Below are positions 2,153 to 30,564 of a stretch of 64,000 nucleotides of DNA, piece after piece (position 1 is the first letter of the stretch; every line of letters begins with the position of its first letter). A program made the position numbers and the translations under genes. The notes beneath the pieces were generated by a model. The model made no database searches and was not told where the DNA came from. It saw only the letters and a list, made by a program, of their open reading frames with translations. Source of the DNA: Aquipuribacter sp. SD81 (GTDB lineage Bacteria; Actinomycetota; Actinomycetes; Actinomycetales; JBBAYJ01); assembly GCF_037153975.1 (NCBI RefSeq), contig NZ_JBBAYJ010000018.1, forward strand, positions 1 to 64,000, read 5' to 3'.

Positions 2153-2607
2153 GGCCGGGCCCCGCCGCCCTCGCGCCGGCCGCGGCGCTGCTGCTGGGTG
2201 CCTGCTCCGGGCCCCTCGCCGTGGAGGCGGGCCCGGACGCCGCCGCGCCGGCCTGCGACGACCTGCTCGCGGCCCTGCCACGCACCGTCGCCGGGGAGCC
2301 GGCCCGGCAGACGACCGGCGCCGGCACGGCCGCGTGGGGCGACCCCGCCGTCCTGCTGCGGTGCGGGGTGGAGCCCACGGGGCCGACGGCCGCCGAGTGC
2401 GTGACGGTGACGGGGCCGCAGGGCGAGCAGGTGGACTGGGTCCTCCTCGCCTCCTCCGACGCGGGCGCCATCCTCACCACGTACGGCCGCCGACCGGCGG
2501 TCGAGGTCGAGGTGCCGGCGACGTACGGTCCGGCGACGCTGTCGGTGCTGCCCGAGGTCGGACCGGCCGTGGCGGGCCTGCCGTCCGAGGCCGTCTGCCT
2601 CGGCTGA
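2131..2607 (+). CDS. DUF3515-family lipoprotein
   Basis: This 158-residue protein has no known enzymatic function. The N-terminus is a short basic stretch followed by a hydrophobic run and the lipobox L22-G23-A24-C25, so it should be lipidated and held on the outer face of the membrane. The rest is rich in Ala, Pro and acidic residues with several cysteines, including C-D-D-L and L-R-C-G-V. Family membership is inferred from size, lipobox and place between the Lrp-domain gene and ddl. The GTG at 2131 lies inside the upstream gene, giving a 22-base overlap and probable coupled translation. A start at 2149 (CTG) is less likely. Confidence 0.75.
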   Translation: MPGRQRLRPGPAALAPAAALLLGACSGPLAVEAGPDAAAPACDDLLAALPRTVAGEPARQTTGAGTAAWGDPAVLLRCGVEPTGPTAAECVTVTGPQGEQVDWVLLASSDAGAILTTYGRRPAVEVEVPATYGPATLSVLPEVGPAVAGLPSEAVCLG

Positions 2608-2629
2608 GCGGGCGACCCGCCCGGCGGCC

Positions 2630-3808
2630 TCAGCGCAGGCCGGTGGGGCGCGAGAGGGCGAGCCGGAGCAGCCGGTCGACGAGCTCGGGGTAGTCGACGC
2701 CGGTGCTGTCCCACAGCACCGGGTACATCGACGTCGCCGTGAAGCCCGGCATGGTGTTGAGCTCGTTGAGCACGAGCCGCGCCCCGCCCGGCGCGTCCGG
2801 GTCGCCGCCCGGCTCGACGAACCAGTCCACCCGCGCGAGGCCCTCGCAGCCGAGCGCGGCGAAGGCCGCCACCGAGCGCTCGCGCACGTGCGCGGCGACG
2901 TCGTCGGGCAGGTCCGCGGGCGCGACGAGGTCGACCGCGGAGCCGTCGAGGTACTTCGCCTCGAAGTCGTAGAAGCCGTCGCCGTGCACGACGATCTCGC
3001 CGCAGACGCTCGCGGTCGGCGTAGCCCCGTCCGCGCCGCCCAGGACGCCGCACTCGACCTCGCGGCCGCTCACCCCGACCTCGACGAGGACCCGCGGGTC
3101 GTGCTCGGCCGCGGTGTCGAGGGCGGCGAGCAGCGCCTCGGTGTCGGCGGGGTCGTCGACCCGGGTGATGCCGAGGCTGCTGCCGGCCCGGGACGGCTTG
3201 ACGAAGACGGGCGCCGACCCGAGCTCCTTCACCCGGCGCGCGGTGGCGGCCGGGCCGTCCTCGCCGCGCCAGTCCGACGGCTGCAGCAGGACCCAGTCGG
3301 CGACGGCGAAGCCGGCGTGGGCGAGGAGGACCTTCATCGTGTGCTTGTCCATGCACGCCGCGGAGGCGAGCACCCCCGAGCCGACGTAGCGCGTCCCGGC
3401 GAGCTCGAGCAGGCCCTGCACGGTGCCGTCCTCGCCGTAGGGCCCGTGCAGGAGCGGCAGCACGACGTCGACGTCGCCGACGGGCACGGGCGCACCGTCG
3501 GCGGGCACGCGCACGAGGCCGGGCGCGGCGGAGTCGGTCGCCGGCAGCACGTGGCCCGGCTGCACGGCGGACGCGTCGGTGACCTCCGGCAGGTCCCGGC
3601 CCCGCAGCCGCCACACGGCGGGGTCGTCGTCGACGAGCAGCCAGGCCCCCGAGCGCGTGATGCCGACGGCGACGACGTCGTAGCGCTCGCGGTCCAGCGC
3701 CGCGAGGACCCCGGAGGCCGTGACGCAGGAGATGCCGTGCTCGCCCGAGCGGCCGCCGAAGAGGACCGCCACGCGGGGTCGTCGGGCGCCGCCCGCGGGA
3801 CTGCTCAT
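2630..3808 (-). CDS. ddl: D-alanine--D-alanine ligase
   Basis: This ATP-grasp enzyme joins two D-alanines for the peptidoglycan stem peptide. The 392-residue protein shows L-F-G-G-R-S-G-E-H at the start, H-G-P-Y-G-E-D-G in the first domain, K-P-S-R-A-G-S-S-L-G-I in the ATP-binding region and the metal-binding L-N-E-L-N-T-M-P-G-F near the C-terminus. All key residues are present. The ATG at 3808 is preceded by TAGCCT with an 8-base gap. It lies divergent to the cystathionine-type gene and tail to tail with the DUF3515 gene. Confidence 0.96.
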   Translation of the reverse strand: MSSPAGGARRPRVAVLFGGRSGEHGISCVTASGVLAALDRERYDVVAVGITRSGAWLLVDDDPAVWRLRGRDLPEVTDASAVQPGHVLPATDSAAPGLVRVPADGAPVPVGDVDVVLPLLHGPYGEDGTVQGLLELAGTRYVGSGVLASAACMDKHTMKVLLAHAGFAVADWVLLQPSDWRGEDGPAATARRVKELGSAPVFVKPSRAGSSLGITRVDDPADTEALLAALDTAAEHDPRVLVEVGVSGREVECGVLGGADGATPTASVCGEIVVHGDGFYDFEAKYLDGSAVDLVAPADLPDDVAAHVRERSVAAFAALGCEGLARVDWFVEPGGDPDAPGGARLVLNELNTMPGFTATSMYPVLWDSTGVDYPELVDRLLRLALSRPTGLR

Positions 3809-23212: not shown

Positions 23213-24817
23213 TCACGCCCGCGACGGCACGCCGCGGCGCAGCAGGCCGTGCGCGAGCCCGTCGACGAGCGCCTCCCACGAGGCCTCGACGACGTTCGGC
23301 CCGACGCCGACCGTCGTCCACGTCGAGGCGTCGTCGGCGGTCTCCAGCAGCACCCGGGTCACGGCGTCCGTGCCGTGGGACGCGTCGAGGATGCGGACGC
23401 GGAAGTCGACGAGGTCGAGGTGCTCGAGCTCGGGGTAGGTGGGGGTGAGTGCGCTGCGCAGCGCGGCGTCGAGCGCGTTGACGGGGCCGTTGCCCTCCCC
23501 GACCGCGATGCAGCGCTCGCCCTTGAGCACCAGCCGGACCGTCGCCTCCGACAGCGCGCCCCCGTGCGTGCCGCCGGGGCGCATCTCGGTGGTGACGCGC
23601 CAGGAGTCGACGTGGAAGTAGTCGGGCACGCCCTCGCCGCGGCCCTGCTCGCACGCGGTGCGTCGCACGAGGAGCTCGAAGGAGGCGTCGGCCGCCTCGA
23701 AGGTGTACCCCTCGGCCTCGCGCGCCTTGACGGCGTCGGCGACGGCCGTCAGCAGCGCCGGCTCCGAGAGGTCGAGGCCCAGCTCGCGGCCCTTGAGCTC
23801 GATGCTCGAGCGCCCCGCCATCTCCGAGACGAGCATCCGCATGTCGTTGCCGACGGTCCGCGGGTCGATGTGCTGGTACAGGTCGGGGTCGACGCGGATC
23901 GCGCTCGCGTGCAGCCCGGCCTTGTGCGTGAAGGCGCTGGCACCGACGTACGGCTGCCGCGAGTACGGCGGCACGTTGGTGATCTCGCTGACGGCGTGCG
24001 CGATCCGGCTCGCCTCGGCGAGGCCGCCCTCGCGCAGCACGGGCGTGCCCCGCTTGAGCTCGAGGTTCGCCACGACCGTCACGAGGTCCGCGTTGCCGGT
24101 CCGCTCGCCGTAGCCGTTGAGCGTGCCCTGCACCTGCACGGCGCCCGCGTCGACCGCCGCGAGGGTGTTGGCGACCGCGCAGCCGGTGTCGTTGTGGCAG
24201 TGGATGCCCATCGGCGCGCCGACCGCGACGGCCACGTCGGCGACGACGTCGGCGACGACGCCGGGCAGGTGGCCGCCGTTGGTGTCGCACAGCGCGACGG
24301 TCGAGGCGCCCGCCTCCACCGCGGTCCGCAGCACCGCCAGGGCGTAGTCGCGGTCGAGCAGGAAGCCGTCGAAGAAGTGCTCGGCGTCGAGCACGACCTC
24401 GCGGCCCTCGCCCACGAGGAACGCGACGCTGTCGCGCACCATCTCGAGGTTCTCCGCGAGGGTCGTGCGCAGGGCGCGCTCGACGTGGCCGGTGTGGCTC
24501 TTGGCGACGAGGGTGACGACGGGCGCCCGGGAGTCCAGCAGCGCCCGCACCTGCGCGTCGCTCGCCGCCCGCCCGCCGGCCCGGCGGGTCGCGCCGAAGG
24601 CGGCCAGGCGCGCGTGCCGCAGCGTCAGCTCGTCCGCGGCGCGGGCGAAGAACTCCGTGTCCTTGGGGATCGCGCCGGGCCAGCCGCCCTCGATGACGCC
24701 GACGCCGAGGTCGTCGAGGTGCACGGCGATCGCGAGCTTGTCCGCGACCGACAGCGACAGCCCCTCCTGCTGGGCCCCGTCGCGCAGCGTCGTGTCGTAG
24801 ACCTGCACCCCGCTCAC
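23213..24817 (-). CDS. cimA: (R)-citramalate synthase
   Basis: This enzyme condenses pyruvate and acetyl-CoA to citramalate, giving 2-oxobutyrate for isoleucine without threonine. The 534-residue protein opens with D-T-T-L-R-D-G-A-Q (HMGL-like TIM barrel) and carries the metal-binding H-C-H-N-D-T-G-C-A-V-A-N and A-F-T-H-K-A-G-L-H-A-S. A C-terminal LeuA-type regulatory domain follows from about 400. That domain order and length fit CimA better than LeuA or homocitrate synthase. The GTG is 18 bases past the ilvE stop with no ribosome-binding site, pointing to coupled translation. Confidence 0.93.
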   Translation of the reverse strand: MSGVQVYDTTLRDGAQQEGLSLSVADKLAIAVHLDDLGVGVIEGGWPGAIPKDTEFFARAADELTLRHARLAAFGATRRAGGRAASDAQVRALLDSRAPVVTLVAKSHTGHVERALRTTLAENLEMVRDSVAFLVGEGREVVLDAEHFFDGFLLDRDYALAVLRTAVEAGASTVALCDTNGGHLPGVVADVVADVAVAVGAPMGIHCHNDTGCAVANTLAAVDAGAVQVQGTLNGYGERTGNADLVTVVANLELKRGTPVLREGGLAEASRIAHAVSEITNVPPYSRQPYVGASAFTHKAGLHASAIRVDPDLYQHIDPRTVGNDMRMLVSEMAGRSSIELKGRELGLDLSEPALLTAVADAVKAREAEGYTFEAADASFELLVRRTACEQGRGEGVPDYFHVDSWRVTTEMRPGGTHGGALSEATVRLVLKGERCIAVGEGNGPVNALDAALRSALTPTYPELEHLDLVDFRVRILDASHGTDAVTRVLLETADDASTWTTVGVGPNVVEASWEALVDGLAHGLLRRGVPSRA

Positions 24818-24835
24818 GCCACCACCGTCACCACG

Positions 24836-25981
24836 TCATGCCAGCCGGCGCAGCCAGCCGTGGGTGTCCGCCTCGCGGCCGTACTGGATGCCGAGCAGCC
24901 GCTCGCGGACCTGCGTGGTGACCGGGCCCGGCTCGGTGCCCATGACGACCTCGCCGCCGTCCCACGCGAGGCGCCCGAGCGGCGTGACGACCGCGGCCGT
25001 GCCGCACGCGAACACCTCGGTGATCTCGCCGCCCGCGACGCCGTCGCGCCACTCGTCGACCGACACGCGCCGCTCCTCGACCCGGTGCCCGAGCTCCCCG
25101 GCCAGGGTGAGGATGGACGAGCGGGTGACGCCCTCGAGGATGGTGCCGGTCAGGGACGGCGTGACGAGCGTGCCGTCCGCGTGCACGAAGTACAGGTTCA
25201 TGCCGCCCAGCTCCTCGACCCAGCGGTGCTCGGTCGCGTCGAGGAAGCACACCTGGTCGCAGCCGTGGCCGATGGCCTCCTGCTGCGCGGCGAGGCTCGC
25301 GGCGTAGTTGCCGCCGCACTTGGCCTCGCCGGTCCCGCCCGGGGCGGCGCGCGTGTAGTCGGTGGTGAGCCAGATGCTGACCGGGGTCACGCCGCCCGCG
25401 AAGTACGACCCGGCGGGCGAGGCGATGAGGCAGTACGTCACCTCGTGGGCCGGGCGCACCCCGAGGAACGACTCGCTGGCGAACATGAAGGGCCGCAGGT
25501 ACAGGCTCGCCTCGCCGCCGGTCGGCACCCAGTCGGCGTCGGCGCCGACGAGCGCCTCGAGGCTCGCGAGGAACGCGGCCTCGGGCAGCTCCGGCAGCGC
25601 GAGCCGCCGCGCCGAGCGGGCGAAGCGGGCCGCATTCGCCTCGGGGCGGAACGACCACACCGACCCGTCCTCGTGCCGGTACGCCTTGAGGCCCTCGAAC
25701 ACCTCCTGCGCGTAGTGCAGGACCGCCGCGGCCGGGGACAGCGTGATGGGGCCGAAGGCCCGGACGCGCGCGTCGTGCCAGCCGCCGTCGGGGGTCCACG
25801 TCGCGGTGACCATGTGGTCGGTGAAGTGCTTGCCGAACCCCGGCGCCCCGAGGATCTGGGTGCGCTCGTCGTCGCTGCGGCGGACGACGTCCGGGTCCAC
25901 GACGAACTCCAGCGCGGGGGCCTCGTCGAGCGCCCGCTCCATCGCCTGCGGGGTGCCCGTCTGCGTGTCCGTCTGCGTCAT
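24836..25981 (-). CDS. ilvE: Branched-chain amino-acid aminotransferase
   Basis: This enzyme performs the last step of Leu, Ile and Val synthesis, moving an amino group from glutamate. The 381-residue fold-type IV PLP protein has the lysine in G-E-A-K-C-G-G-N-Y-A-A-S, plus Y-A-Q-E-V-F-E-G-L-K-A-Y-R and the phosphate-binding T-G-T-I-L-E-G-V-T-R-S-S. The ATG at 25981 follows a GGGAGG site 7 bases upstream. It lies between leuB and cimA on the same strand and probably in the same transcript. Confidence 0.97.
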   Translation of the reverse strand: MTQTDTQTGTPQAMERALDEAPALEFVVDPDVVRRSDDERTQILGAPGFGKHFTDHMVTATWTPDGGWHDARVRAFGPITLSPAAAVLHYAQEVFEGLKAYRHEDGSVWSFRPEANAARFARSARRLALPELPEAAFLASLEALVGADADWVPTGGEASLYLRPFMFASESFLGVRPAHEVTYCLIASPAGSYFAGGVTPVSIWLTTDYTRAAPGGTGEAKCGGNYAASLAAQQEAIGHGCDQVCFLDATEHRWVEELGGMNLYFVHADGTLVTPSLTGTILEGVTRSSILTLAGELGHRVEERRVSVDEWRDGVAGGEITEVFACGTAAVVTPLGRLAWDGGEVVMGTEPGPVTTQVRERLLGIQYGREADTHGWLRRLA

Positions 25982-26045
25982 CGTGCGCCTCCCAGCCTGT
26001 CCGCCCGGCGCCCTCGCCGGCGTCCGGCCAGCCTAGGGCAGCCCC

Positions 26046-27131
26046 TCACGCGCCGAGGCGGGCGAGGACGTCGGCGGTCACCTGCGCGGTGCCCGGCCGC
26101 GCGGCGGACGGCTCCCGGGCGCCGAGGGCCTCGACGACCGCGGTGTGCACGCGCCCGGCCGCCGCGGCGAGCCCGACGTGCTCCAGCAGCAGCGCGACCG
26201 ACAGGAACGTCGCGGTGGGGTCGGCGACCCCCTGCCCGGCGATGTCGGGGGCCGAGCCGTGGACCGGCTCGAACATGCTCGGGGCCGTGCGGTCGGGGTT
26301 GACGTTGCCGCTCGCCGCCAGGCCGATGCCGCCGGTGACGGCGGCGGCGAGGTCGGTGAGGATGTCGCCGAAGAGGTTGTCGGTGACGACGACGTCGAAG
26401 CGCTGCGGGTCGGTCGTGAGGAAGATCGTCGCGGCGTCGACGTGGAGGTAGTCGACCGTGACGTCGGGGTGCTCGGCGTTGAGGGCCTCGACGGTCCGGC
26501 GCCACAGGTGCCCGGCGTGGACGAGCACGTTGTGCTTGTGCACGAGCGTGAGCTTCTTCCGCGGCCGGGCGGCCGCCCGCGCGAACGCGTCGCGCACGAC
26601 ACGCTCGACACCGAACGCCGTGTTGACGCTGACCTCGGTCGCGATCTCCGCGGGGGTCCCGACGCGCAGCGCGCCGCCGTTGCCGACGTAGGGCCCCTCG
26701 GTACCCTCGCGCACGACGACGAAGTCGACGGGGCCGCGGTCGAGCACAGCGGCCGACAGCGGGCTCGTCGCGCCCGGCAGCAGCACCGACGGGCGCAGGT
26801 TGACGTAGTGGTCGAGCGCGAAGCGCAGCCGCAGCAGCAGGCCGCGCTCCAGCACCCCGCTGGGCACGCCGGGGTCCCCGACCGCGCCGAGGAGGATCGC
26901 CTCGTGCTGCCGGACGGCCTCGAGGTCGGCGTCGGTGAGGGTCTCGCCCGTGCGGTGCCAGCGGGCGGCGCCGAGGTCGTAGTCGGTCGTGCGGACGTCG
27001 ACGCCGTCGGCCGCGACCGCGGCGCGCAGCACGTCCAGCCCCGCGCCGACGACCTCGGGGCCGATGCCGTCGCCGGCGATCACGGCGAGGTCGAGCGTCC
27101 GGGTCGGCTGCGGCTGGCTCGCGCTGGACAT
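26046..27131 (-). CDS. leuB: 3-isopropylmalate dehydrogenase
   Basis: LeuB oxidises 3-isopropylmalate, and can serve the citramalate branch too, with NAD+. The 361-residue protein has G-D-G-I-G-P-E-V, the substrate-binding [26 protein letters not shown] and [14 protein letters not shown], all as in the IlvE-distant isocitrate/isopropylmalate dehydrogenase family. The ATG at 27131 has TACCCT 6 bases upstream and no ribosome-binding site. It heads the leuB-ilvE-cimA unit. Confidence 0.97.
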
Positions 27132-27137
27132 GGGGCG

Positions 27138-27143
27138 AGGGTA
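27138..27143 (-). promoter_or_regulatory. leuB: -10 box, leaderless start of leuB
   Basis: TACCCT on the minus strand stands 6 bases before the leuB ATG. It is the probable promoter of the leuB-ilvE-cimA unit; no leader peptide precedes it. Confidence 0.5.
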
Positions 27144-27193
27144 GACAGCGGCCCCGCACGGACCGCGGCGCGACCGGGACCTGGGACGCCGAC

Positions 27194-28465
27194 CTAGACG
27201 CGCGCCCGCTTCCGCCAGGACGTGAACGAGCGGACCGTCCCGCTGCCGGGGCGCACGAGCCACGGCCACGGGTGGGTCTCCGCGGGCTCGACGGCCGCCG
27301 CGCGGCGGGCGAAGCCGGGCACGGGTGCGTGCGTGACGGCGACCGCGGCCCCCCGCAGCACCTCGCCCGGGCGGCCCCGGTGCACGGTGACGTCGTGCCC
27401 CGTGGCGAGGTGCGCGACGGTCTCGGTGAGGAAGACCAGCCGCTTGCCGGACAGCCGCAGCCGCGCGAGGAGCGGGGCGTCGAACACGACGACGACGGGC
27501 AGGTCGGGGTGCGCGTCGAGGGCGGGGTCGCTCTCACCGAGCGACTCGAACGTCAGCCACACCGCGCGGGGCGGGCCGCGGTGCTCGACGGCGGCCGGCC
27601 CGTGCAGGGCGGCCCCCTCGTCGCCGCGCGCGAGGCCCGGCGGCTCGACGGTCCGCGGCGGGGTCGGCGCGTCCGGCCACTGCTCGACGGGGCACGCCCG
27701 GCGCAGCGGGCACGACGCGCAGAGCTGCGGCGCGCGCTTCTCCACCTGCCAGCGGCTGAAGCCGTACGGCCGTCCCGTGCCCGTCCCGACCGTCCACTGC
27801 CAGCCGAGCCGGTTCGCGGCGCGGGAGCCGTCGAGCAGGTGCCGGAAGAACTCGTCCTCGCCGTCGCGCCAGTCGCGACCGGCGCGCACGGTCCACTGCG
27901 AGGCCAGCCACATCCGCGTCTGGTTCACCAGCCAGCCGTCGCGGTGCAGCTCGCCGGTCGTCGTGGCCATGCACGCCATGCGCTCCGGCCACGCCTCGCC
28001 GGACCAGCCGGTGCCCGTGGCCGGCTCGTGACGCAGCGGGCGGGCGAGCGCGCGGCCCGTGCGCGCGTGCAGGTGGCGGGCGTACTCCTGCCACAGCAGC
28101 TCGTCGCGGTACCTCTGCCGGTCCCGGGCCGGGGCGTCGGCGACCCGGTCCCACAACGAGCGGAGGTCGAGCAGGCCGTGGCGGACGTACGGGCTCATCC
28201 GGCTCGCGCCGCGCCGCTCGGGCGGCCACACCTCGTTGCGCCGCGCCGCATAACCGGTGACGTCCAGACCGGCGAGGGCGGCGTCGGCCGCGGGCTGGCC
28301 ACCCCGGAACGCGGTGCTCGCGCGGACGCCGTCGGGACCCTCCAGGGTGAGGTCGCCGAGGTGGGCCGCCACCCACGCCGCGGCGGCGCCGGGGTCCTCG
28401 GCCGCGGCCCGCGGCGGGGTCGGGAGCCTCGTCCCACGTGCGTCGCGCCCGACCGTGCCCACCAC
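27194..28465 (-). CDS. Photolyase/cryptochrome-like protein with swapped domain order
   Basis: The 423-residue protein starts with a photolyase FAD-binding domain: [10 protein letters not shown] near 88, E-L-L-W-Q-E-Y near 120, and [15 protein letters not shown] near 220. A cysteine cluster [10 protein letters not shown] follows at about 248-257. The last 120 residues look like the alpha/beta antenna domain that normally comes first: [30 protein letters not shown], and a closing [11 protein letters not shown]. In ordinary photolyases that closing segment leads into the FAD domain. The cysteines may hold Fe-S or zinc. The start is GTG 28465 or 28462, with CATGAT 6 bases upstream of the former. 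Confidence 0.8.
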
Positions 28466-28542: not shown

Positions 28543-28549
28543 GTGGCCC

Positions 28550-29845
28550 GTGCCCGTGCCCGAGGACCCCGGCGGGACGCCGGTGGGCCGGCCGGGCCGG
28601 CTCGGTCGCTGGTGGCGCGAGCACGTGGTGCTCGTCGACTCGCTGTGGGTCGTCGTGCTGCTCGTGCCGTCGCTGTTGTGGCTGGTCGCGCTCGGGGTCA
28701 GCGGCGGCTACGGCCCCGCGCTCCTCGCGCAGACGGTGCTGAGCGTCGTCCTGCTCGTGCCGCTGGCGTGGCGGCGCGTCGCGCCCGGCGTCGTCGCGGG
28801 CGGGCTCGCCGTGCTGCAGGTCGGGCAGCTGCTGAGCGGTCTCGTCGACGAGACGGGCGTCCTGCCGGCGAACGTCTTCGCGACCCTGTCGGCGGTCTTC
28901 ACCGTCACCGCCCACGCCCGCCGCGACCGCACGTGGCAGGTGTACCTCGCCGTGGCCCTGCTCGGCTGCGCCCTCCTCGGGGTGCTCGTGCAGAGCGGGC
29001 TCGGCCTCACGGCCGCCACGGCCGTGCTGGGGGCCGCGCTCGCGGGCTACCTGCGCCGCATCGTCCGGGTCCGCGACGAGGCCGCCGTGGAGCGGGCGCG
29101 CCGGCTGGAGGTGGAGCGGGACTCCGCGGCCGCCGTCGCCGCGGCCGACGAGCGCCGGCGCATCGCGCGCGACCTGCACGACGTCATCGCGCACTCGCTC
29201 ACCGTCGTCGTCGCCCAGGCCGACGGGGGCCGCTACGCCGCCCGCACCGACCCCACCGCGGCGGTGGAGGCGCTGCGCACCGTGTCGGTCACCGGTCGGG
29301 CGGCGCTGGCGGACCTGCGCGCGGCGCTCGGGGCGCTCCGCGACACCGACGGCGCCCGGACCGACCCGCTGCCCGGCGCGGGCGACGTGCCGGTCCTCGT
29401 CGACCGGGTGCGCGCCTCCGGGGCCGACGTGCGCCTCACGCTGCTCGGGGACACCGCCGCGGTGCCCGCCGCGACCGGTCTCACGGTGTACCGGGTGGTG
29501 CAGGAGTCGCTGACGAACGCCCTCAAGCACGCCGGACCCGGCACGGGCGTGGAGGTGCGGGTCGAGGTGGGCGAGGGTGTCGAGGTGCACGTCGTCGACG
29601 ACGGCCTCGGCTCCGCGGCGCCCGTCGCCGACGGCACCGGCCTCGGCGTCGTCGGCATGCGGGAGCGGGTGCGGGCGCTCGGCGGGGAGCTCGTCGCGGG
29701 GCCGCGCGCGGGCGGCGGCTGGGTCGTGCGGGCGAGCCTCCCGCTCCCGCCCGGCACGGGCGGCACGGGCGGCACGAGCGGCACGGACGTCACGAGCGGG
29801 ACGAGCGGCACGGCGGACCCGGACCGACCGGGGGTGCGCCGGTGA
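28550..29845 (+). CDS. Two-component sensor histidine kinase (DesK/NarX type)
   Basis: The 431-residue protein has four to five membrane segments between residues 25 and 170 with short loops, so it senses within or near the membrane. The H-box is H210 in R-R-R-I-A-R-D-L-H-D-V-I-A-H-S-L (HisKA_3). The HATPase domain follows with E-S-L-T-N-A-L-K-H-A, D-D-G-L-G-S and G-L-G-V-V-G-M-R-E-R-V. The C-terminus ends in a G-T-G-G-T-S-G-T low-complexity tail. Its stop overlaps the GTG of the response regulator by 4 bases (GTGA). Confidence 0.92.
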   Translation: MPVPEDPGGTPVGRPGRLGRWWREHVVLVDSLWVVVLLVPSLLWLVALGVSGGYGPALLAQTVLSVVLLVPLAWRRVAPGVVAGGLAVLQVGQLLSGLVDETGVLPANVFATLSAVFTVTAHARRDRTWQVYLAVALLGCALLGVLVQSGLGLTAATAVLGAALAGYLRRIVRVRDEAAVERARRLEVERDSAAAVAAADERRRIARDLHDVIAHSLTVVVAQADGGRYAARTDPTAAVEALRTVSVTGRAALADLRAALGALRDTDGARTDPLPGAGDVPVLVDRVRASGADVRLTLLGDTAAVPAATGLTVYRVVQESLTNALKHAGPGTGVEVRVEVGEGVEVHVVDDGLGSAAPVADGTGLGVVGMRERVRALGGELVAGPRAGGGWVVRASLPLPPGTGGTGGTSGTDVTSGTSGTADPDRPGVRR

Positions 29846-30564
29846 GCGACGTGACGACCGTCGCGATCGTCGACGACCAGCCGCTCGTGCGCGCCGGCTT
29901 CCGGATGCTCGTGGACTCCCAGCCGGACCTGCGGGTCCTCGTGGAGGCGGGTGACGGCCGCGCGGCCGTGGCGGCGCTCGCCCGCACCCCCGTCGACGTC
30001 GTGCTCATGGACGTGCGGATGCCCGTCCTCGACGGTGTGGCCGCGACGCGGGAGCTGCTCGCCGTCCGTCCCGCCACCAAGGTGCTCGTCCTCACGACGT
30101 TCGACCTCGACGACTACGTGCTGTCGGCCGTCGCGGCCGGCGCGAGCGGTTTCCTGCTGAAGGACGCCGAGCCGGAGGAGCTGCTCGCGGCGGTGCGCAC
30201 CGTGCGCTCCGGGGAGTCCGTGGTCGCCGCGAGCGCGACCCGGCGCCTGCTCGACCACGTCGCCCCGCTGCTGCGCGCGGGCGAGGGTCCCGCCCCGGCC
30301 GCGGCGGGGGGCACCGGCGGGACCCGCGGGTCGGCGCCGGAGCTCGACGCCCTGACGGCGCGCGAGCGCGAGGTGCTCGTGCTCATGGCGCACGGGCTGT
30401 CGAACACCGAGATCGCCGAGCGGCTCGTCGTCGGGCACTCCACGGTGAAGACGCACGTCGGGCGCGTGCTGGACAAGACCGGCAGCCGCGACCGGGTGCA
30501 GGCGGTCGTCCTCGCCTACCGCGCGGGCCTCGTCCACCCCCAGGACGACCCCGACGCGTCCTGA
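29842..30564 (+). CDS. LuxR/NarL-family response regulator
   Basis: The 240-residue protein has a receiver domain with D11 and D12, the phospho-acceptor D57 in V-V-L-M-D-V-R-M-P, and G-F-L-L-K-D at about 105. A low-complexity G-G-T-G-G-T linker leads to a LuxR helix-turn-helix near 175-235 (L-T-A-R-E-R-E-V-L, T-E-I-A-E-R-L-V-V, S-T-V-K-T-H-V). It is coupled to the kinase by a 4-base overlap and stands 126 bases before an ABC exporter operon that it probably controls. Confidence 0.94.
   Translation: MSDVTTVAIVDDQPLVRAGFRMLVDSQPDLRVLVEAGDGRAAVAALARTPVDVVLMDVRMPVLDGVAATRELLAVRPATKVLVLTTFDLDDYVLSAVAAGASGFLLKDAEPEELLAAVRTVRSGESVVAASATRRLLDHVAPLLRAGEGPAPAAAGGTGGTRGSAPELDALTAREREVLVLMAHGLSNTEIAERLVVGHSTVKTHVGRVLDKTGSRDRVQAVVLAYRAGLVHPQDDPDAS

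Follow-up and report, generated by a model that had tools for sequence, protein, structure and literature searches.

A predicted iron-sulfur photolyase with inverted domain order in the actinobacterium Aquipuribacter sp. SD81

Photolyases in which the order of the two domains is reversed are already in print. Marine Synechococcus and Cyanobium encode such proteins either as two open reading frames (ORFs), Phr4 and Phr5, or as the fused Phr6, all with four iron-sulfur (Fe-S) cysteines (PMC9426592). The NewPHL proteins likewise have an inverted topology (PMC13274461), and the short photolyase-like (SPL) class, which is related to classes I and III, is described as lacking an N-terminal alpha/beta domain and carrying an FeS cluster (PMC9649867, PMC9178010, PMC9498864) and as comprising cyclobutane pyrimidine dimer (CPD) repair enzymes (PMC9649867). 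The reversed architecture is thus not new. Here we describe a gene of this kind from Aquipuribacter sp. SD81 (Actinomycetota), located in positions 1 to 64,000 of contig NZ_JBBAYJ010000018.1, a stretch of 64,000 nucleotides that we refer to as the window. Its product is probably a photolyase with inverted topology that contains Fe-S, of the NewPHL/SPL type and within the Fe-S branch, like Cyanobium Phr6. The first-pass annotation of this DNA had stated that in photolyases the alpha/beta domain precedes the flavin adenine dinucleotide (FAD)-binding domain; this is the canonical order, to which the NewPHL/SPL proteins and Phr4-6 are published exceptions.

Introducing phr4/phr5 raised ultraviolet (UV)-C survival of an E. 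coli strain lacking photolyase and the SOS response, with very little effect for UV-B, and the presumed cluster cysteines of Phr4 are C169, C254, C257 and C263, with gaps of 84, 2 and 5 (PMC9426592). By the published description, the window protein resembles Phr4-6 in having the FAD domain first and the photolyase domain last, and its cysteine gaps are 83, 2 and 5. It differs in belonging to another phylum, and whereas the flavin-binding residues of the cyanobacterial proteins, including both aspartates, are reported as conserved, the second aspartate is a serine in all 78 members of the family aligned here. The SPL proteins are similar by description in their FeS cluster and in the absence of an N-terminal alpha/beta domain, but the proteins described here carry that domain C-terminally. 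Our literature search for circularly permuted photolyases returned none that we recognised from titles and the starts of abstracts.

The gene lies on the minus strand, where the first-pass annotation had placed it, with its coding part at 27197-28465, a GTG start and its stop codon at 27194-27196; the product is 423 residues long. Its features are as follows.

27194..28465, minus strand: inverted-domain photolyase gene, 423 amino acids plus stop, with whole-length relatives
27722..28432, minus strand: N-terminal FAD-binding catalytic domain, about residues 12-248 (to ~250), from Pfam, structure and profile matches
27971..27973, minus strand: C165, the first presumed Fe-S cysteine (in MACM), present in 78/78 and aligned with the M-x-C cysteine of FeS-BCPs
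27692..27721, minus strand: C249-x2-C252-x5-C258, the remaining presumed Fe-S cysteines, present in 78/78 and aligned with FeS-BCPs
27575..27691, minus strand: linker between the domains, residues 259-297, mostly coil in the AlphaFold2 model, with a predicted local distance difference test score (pLDDT) down to 71 in one block
27197..27574, minus strand: C-terminal photolyase alpha/beta domain, residues 298-423, from AlphaFold2, VIA-align and hhalign

The window protein has its FAD domain first and a second photolyase domain last. The only Pfam domain detected in it is FAD_binding_7, which covers residues 121-231 (E 2.3e-10, above the cut-off) and is detected in all 78 members of an alignment whose sequences are 56-78% identical to the window protein. 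The best photolyase by sequence in the PDB, 1owl, aligns its residues 225-398 with residues 69-230 (E 1.8e-13). From the positions of these two matches it follows that the FAD domain occupies the place where canonical photolyases have the alpha/beta domain, as the FAD-domain landmarks noted in the first-pass annotation had suggested. A structure search with residues 1-271 also matched photolyases, with PhrB best (Z 16.3) and the Thermus photolyase next (15.2). We compared the profile of the FAD domain with two sets, canonical photolyases (which we read as class I) and FeS-BCPs, and found it nearer to the former (E 6e-23) than to the latter (E 3.3e-9). The full-length AlphaFold2 model had a pLDDT of 93.9 and a predicted template modelling score of 0.93, with the alpha/beta unit beginning at about residue 300.

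The identity of the C-terminal domain was assessed by folding it alone. Residues 296-423, modelled by AlphaFold2 from the 78-row alignment, gave a pLDDT of 90.1. In VIA-align, which took as input the chains ranked highest by Foldseek (999 aligned, 80 with Z >= 8, 50 rows listed), the partner in 49 of the 50 listed rows was a photolyase or cryptochrome, aligned from its N-terminus onward. The best was 1iqr (Z 10.4 over 121 residues, root-mean-square deviation 3.2, chain residues 2-147), and the 1owl row spanned residues 3-287. The fiftieth was a trypanosome mitoribosome assembly protein, a sister entry of which also matched the FAD part. A different fold for these roughly 120 residues, the outcome that the first-pass annotation had named as overturning its proposal, was not seen. 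Profile comparison agrees: set against 20 canonical photolyases with hhalign, the C-terminal domain matched their N-terminal domain at E 2.1e-6, in an alignment reaching the FTPF segment at its border, with which the end of the window protein, SFTSWRK, is aligned. A terminal segment resembling the usual inter-domain border had also been noted at first pass. Pfam reported nothing for this domain of the window protein, and PF00875 appeared in just 3 of the 78 family members, with a best E of 0.083.

When 198 genomes were searched in six frames with the profile of the C-terminal domain alone, 23 places scored E <= 0.05, and 15 of these belong to the family itself. The next four (G184:C225, G205:C66, G229:C1 and G141:C75; E 9.2e-8 to 5.2e-4, hence all of the non-family places at E <= 0.001) lie upstream of an FAD-part match on the same strand, and we read them as canonical photolyases with the domain ahead of the FAD domain. 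The last four, at E 0.012-0.033, were taken as noise. The full-length profile likewise matched with crossed domain order in four genomes (G184, G300, G205 and G313; E 1.2e-7 to 4.1e-5), with one stop in the G313 piece. Because the C-terminal profile finds its matches upstream of canonical FAD domains, we conclude that it describes one domain, which leads in canonical photolyases and comes last in this family. The first-pass annotation had called this a circular permutation; our evidence supports that as regards the order and the homology of the two domains, whereas a circular permutation in the strict sense would also require the same three-dimensional docking.

The cysteines form the second distinctive feature. 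Every one of the 78 aligned sequences has C165, C249, C252 and C258, always spaced by 83, 2 and 5 residues, and the same four-cysteine pattern was found in 11/11 loci and 3/3 further copies that had been kept out of the alignment. None of the 20 canonical photolyases aligned contains a C-x2-C-x4-14-C motif. In a profile alignment with ten FeS-BCPs, C165 falls on the cysteine of M-x-C and the other three fall on those of C-x2-C-x12-C. The four invariant cysteines are good evidence for a predicted [4Fe-4S] site. The cluster reported at first pass as C-x2-C-x5-C is thus C249, C252 and C258, and the M-A-C-M cysteine that it placed near residue 155 exists and is invariant, although its position is 165; the accompanying guess that these residues might hold an Fe-S cluster as in FeS-BCPs gains support at the sequence level. 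The FeS-BCPs, which include the prokaryotic 6-4 photolyases PhrB and CryB, share these four aligned cysteines; they differ in having the canonical order with an N-terminal PF04244 (DPRP) domain, which was not found in the window protein. Class I CPD photolyases have the nearer FAD-domain profile and share most of the active-site set, but their domain order is the reverse and the cysteine motif is absent from the 20 canonical sequences.

We take the active-site residues of the window protein to correspond to those of the E. coli enzyme as follows: E122 to E274, W125 to W277, N181 to N341, M185 to M345, D212 to D372, N218 to N378, W222 to W382 and W224 to W384. Seven of the eight are kept in 78/78 members and M185 in 76/78, so that the Glu, Trp, Asn, Met, Trp set of class I CPD photolyases (E122, W125, N181, M185 and W224) is present. 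Where FeS-BCPs read HHIQRLM the family reads LVNQTRM, and the His-rich stretch of the FeS-BCPs is absent. The retention of most of the class I set points to a cyclobutane dimer, and not the 6-4 photoproduct, as the most likely lesion, and the window protein would be an actinobacterial member of the Fe-S branch and most likely a CPD photolyase. We envision that the N-terminal domain binds FAD and that blue light would excite the reduced cofactor, from which an electron would pass to a pyrimidine dimer flipped into the pocket, splitting it. C165, C249, C252 and C258 would hold a [4Fe-4S] cluster in a structural or electron-relay role, and the C-terminal alpha/beta domain may pack on the catalytic domain and close the flavin site, possibly without an antenna.

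Several observations weigh against this assignment. One is that the class I relay's outer Trp lacks a conserved counterpart, W154 being present in 18/78 and a Trp one column on in 15; others bear on the alternatives to it. The protein could instead be a prokaryotic (6-4) photolyase, with the Fe-S cluster as the mark of that function. The alignment of the four cysteines with FeS-BCPs and the structural proximity of the FAD domain to PhrB, close as the Thermus photolyase is, both favor this; moreover, loss of Phr4/Phr5 lowers survival after UV-C but not after UV-B, and the authors predict a 6-4 photolyase for their Phr4/Phr5 relative (PMC9426592). We nevertheless consider it unlikely, given the nearer canonical profile, the LVNQTRM reading in place of HHIQRLM, and the fact that the same genome already has a PF04244 gene of FeS-BCP type (G000:C3:93801-94451). 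Alternatively, the protein may have given up DNA repair and serve in light sensing, in the manner of a cryptochrome, or as a redox protein. Two residues of the flavin and lesion site differ in all members (78/78): Q182 replaces the canonical Arg after Asn, and S214 replaces the second Asp of DGD, a residue listed as flavin-binding (PMC9426592). A repair role could, in addition, be redundant, since 25 of the 26 genomes with the gene have a further FAD-domain match. Retention of the lesion-binding Glu, Trp, Asn, Met and Trp, however, together with the action of the nearest published kin in photorepair, makes a loss of repair quite improbable.

The remaining doubts concern the cysteines and the C-terminal domain. 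Cysteine-only sites of this kind can bind zinc, and the four residues might hold that metal and not an Fe-S cluster; their one-to-one alignment with FeS-BCPs, including PhrB with its solved Fe-S structure, makes this very unlikely. As for the C-terminal domain, Foldseek alone left it without a hit at E <= 0.001; mouse CRY1 came first (5.8e-3), closely followed by a mixture of class II photolyases, ornithine carbamoyltransferase, methyltransferases and USP proteins. Nor did hhalign match the domain with the N-terminal domains of FeS-BCPs (E 0.39) or with the C-terminal domains of four presumed NewPHLs (E 0.12). Such results would fit an unrelated Rossmann-like domain that merely resembles the photolyase antenna domain, yet they stand against the VIA-align fold matches, the profile matches to canonical and Deinococcus proteins and the matches upstream of canonical FAD domains, and we regard an unrelated origin as extremely improbable. 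Our data do establish in what order the domains stand, that both are homologous to their canonical counterparts, and that the cysteines and active-site residues are conserved.

Beyond the window, the gene is widespread in Actinomycetota. Among 59 genomes near the window's own, a whole-length relative was present in 11 (own included), at 12 places, with 61-78% identity (window excluded). One of these relatives (L010, G049:C142:36088-37284) has an in-frame TGA and is a possible pseudogene. All other matches in these genomes are confined to the FAD part, inside residues 30-296, save one in G047 to residues 280-377 (E 4.4e-4), which was taken as chance because the ORF there looks by eye like a quinone oxidoreductase. 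Among named genomes of bacteria and archaea, a scan gave 259 stretches, which may include canonical photolyases; we assign all of the best 80, in which most of the query was matched, to Actinomycetota except one metagenome-assembled genome of Myxococcota (L070). Whole-length matches at E < 1e-150 occurred in 26 of 396 Actinomycetota genomes (own included). Because 25 of these 26 also have an FAD-part match in another gene, the inverted photolyase seems to add to a normal photolyase and not to replace it. One relative, from Rhodococcus (L080), is identical to the window protein at 255 of 411 aligned residues. An SPL from Rhodococcus fascians reportedly contained FAD and Fe-S when purified and was active in CPD repair.

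The persistence of a single reading frame in whole-length relatives from many genomes rules out an assembly or frameshift artefact. A phage origin was also considered and set aside: tblastn of a phage collection returned 8 records, all over the FAD domain only, and a scan of IMG/VR found no relative. No neighbor is common to most of the 80 loci, the largest cluster of neighbors occurring in 12/80. It encodes a protein with DUF2256 and DUF3253 (e.g. L079:2251-2888 and L099:2745-3313, the two in which the domains were checked). A gene for an FeS-BCP-type photolyase lies in the flank of the inverted one at 3/80 loci (L070, L044 and L090), and in G152:C25 the inverted and FeS-BCP-type matches are ~0.9 kb apart.

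More distant relatives were found in Deinococcus. Three plasmid-borne proteins (H1-H3) match over residues 54-395 or 88-395 with 30-32% identity and contain the four cysteines without exception, with gaps of 84, 2 and 6. The profile of their C-terminal domain matches the actinobacterial one at E 1.6e-13, and in L118, the single protein submitted to Pfam, residues 300-395 were recognised as DNA_photolyase, though below the cut-off (E 7e-4). On a plasmid of Deinococcus sp. QL22 (L119:2396-3687) separate genes encode the FAD and alpha/beta domains (2396-3169 and 3166-3687), with a 4-base overlap; the second carries the annotation hypothetical but is DNA_photolyase-like by Pfam (E 2.3e-4, below the cut-off). 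This split pair resembles the phr4/phr5 split of picocyanobacteria. The likeness to NewPHLs consists in the inverted topology and in the FAD domain, whose profile matches four presumed members from Alphaproteobacteria (Ruegeria, Asticcacaulis and Peteryoungia) at E 4.9e-26. These differ in that none of the four has the C-x2-C-x4-14-C motif and in their C-terminal domain, which the profile does not match. That their C-terminal part is alpha/beta-like and homologous to the actinobacterial one is our reading of the sequences only, because the profile comparison gives it no support. On a plasmid of Persicobacter sp. JZB09 we also noticed, by eye, an FAD-first, photolyase-like ORF without the cysteine cluster (L168:1204-2544; likewise in L169), directly followed and overlapped by an alpha/beta-first photolyase ORF (L168:2531-3532).

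The relationships among these FAD domains were examined in a 45-row tree that took in 14 of the 78 family members, 4 Deinococcus, 4 presumed NewPHL, 16 of the 20 canonical and 7 of the 10 FeS-BCP sequences. NewPHL-like rows grouped with canonical photolyases (92/95), and the actinobacterial family grouped with three of the four Deinococcus rows (82/73), neither grouping being starred. In an approximately unbiased (AU) test, neither a single clade of all inverted forms (p-AU 0.42) nor a clade of the actinobacterial and all four Deinococcus rows (p-AU 0.366) was rejected. Because its rows do not include class II, class III, DASH or plant and animal sequences, this tree cannot date the reversal.

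Taken with the published cases, these data extend a known but little-studied kind of photolyase. They indicate that inverted Fe-S photolyases form a stable family across Actinomycetota, with relatives in Deinococcus, and are not a picocyanobacterial oddity; they add a split Deinococcus form, which offers a natural test of whether the two domains work in trans, and evidence that ‘short’ photolyases keep the alpha/beta domain at their other end. We tentatively raise the possibility, though we think it more doubtful than not, that the short photolyases, proposed as antenna-less ancestors of all photolyases, are not single-domain relics but have, in their Fe-S branch, the alpha/beta domain C-terminally or as a separate downstream gene. 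The two domains may have started as separate genes and fused in both orders, with the canonical and inverted proteins as independent outcomes.

Some minor points concern the locus itself. The exact start of the protein is uncertain by some residues because two GTG codons stand in succession and the model's pLDDT is <50 at residues 1-4. Downstream, at 23213-27269 on the minus strand, lie genes matching 3-isopropylmalate dehydrogenase, branched-chain aminotransferase and citramalate synthase; these are ordinary amino-acid genes without an obvious connection to the photolyase. Upstream and divergent, on the plus strand at ~28549-30564, lie genes for which NCBIfam gave no match on the stretches submitted and which by eye resemble a histidine kinase and a response regulator.
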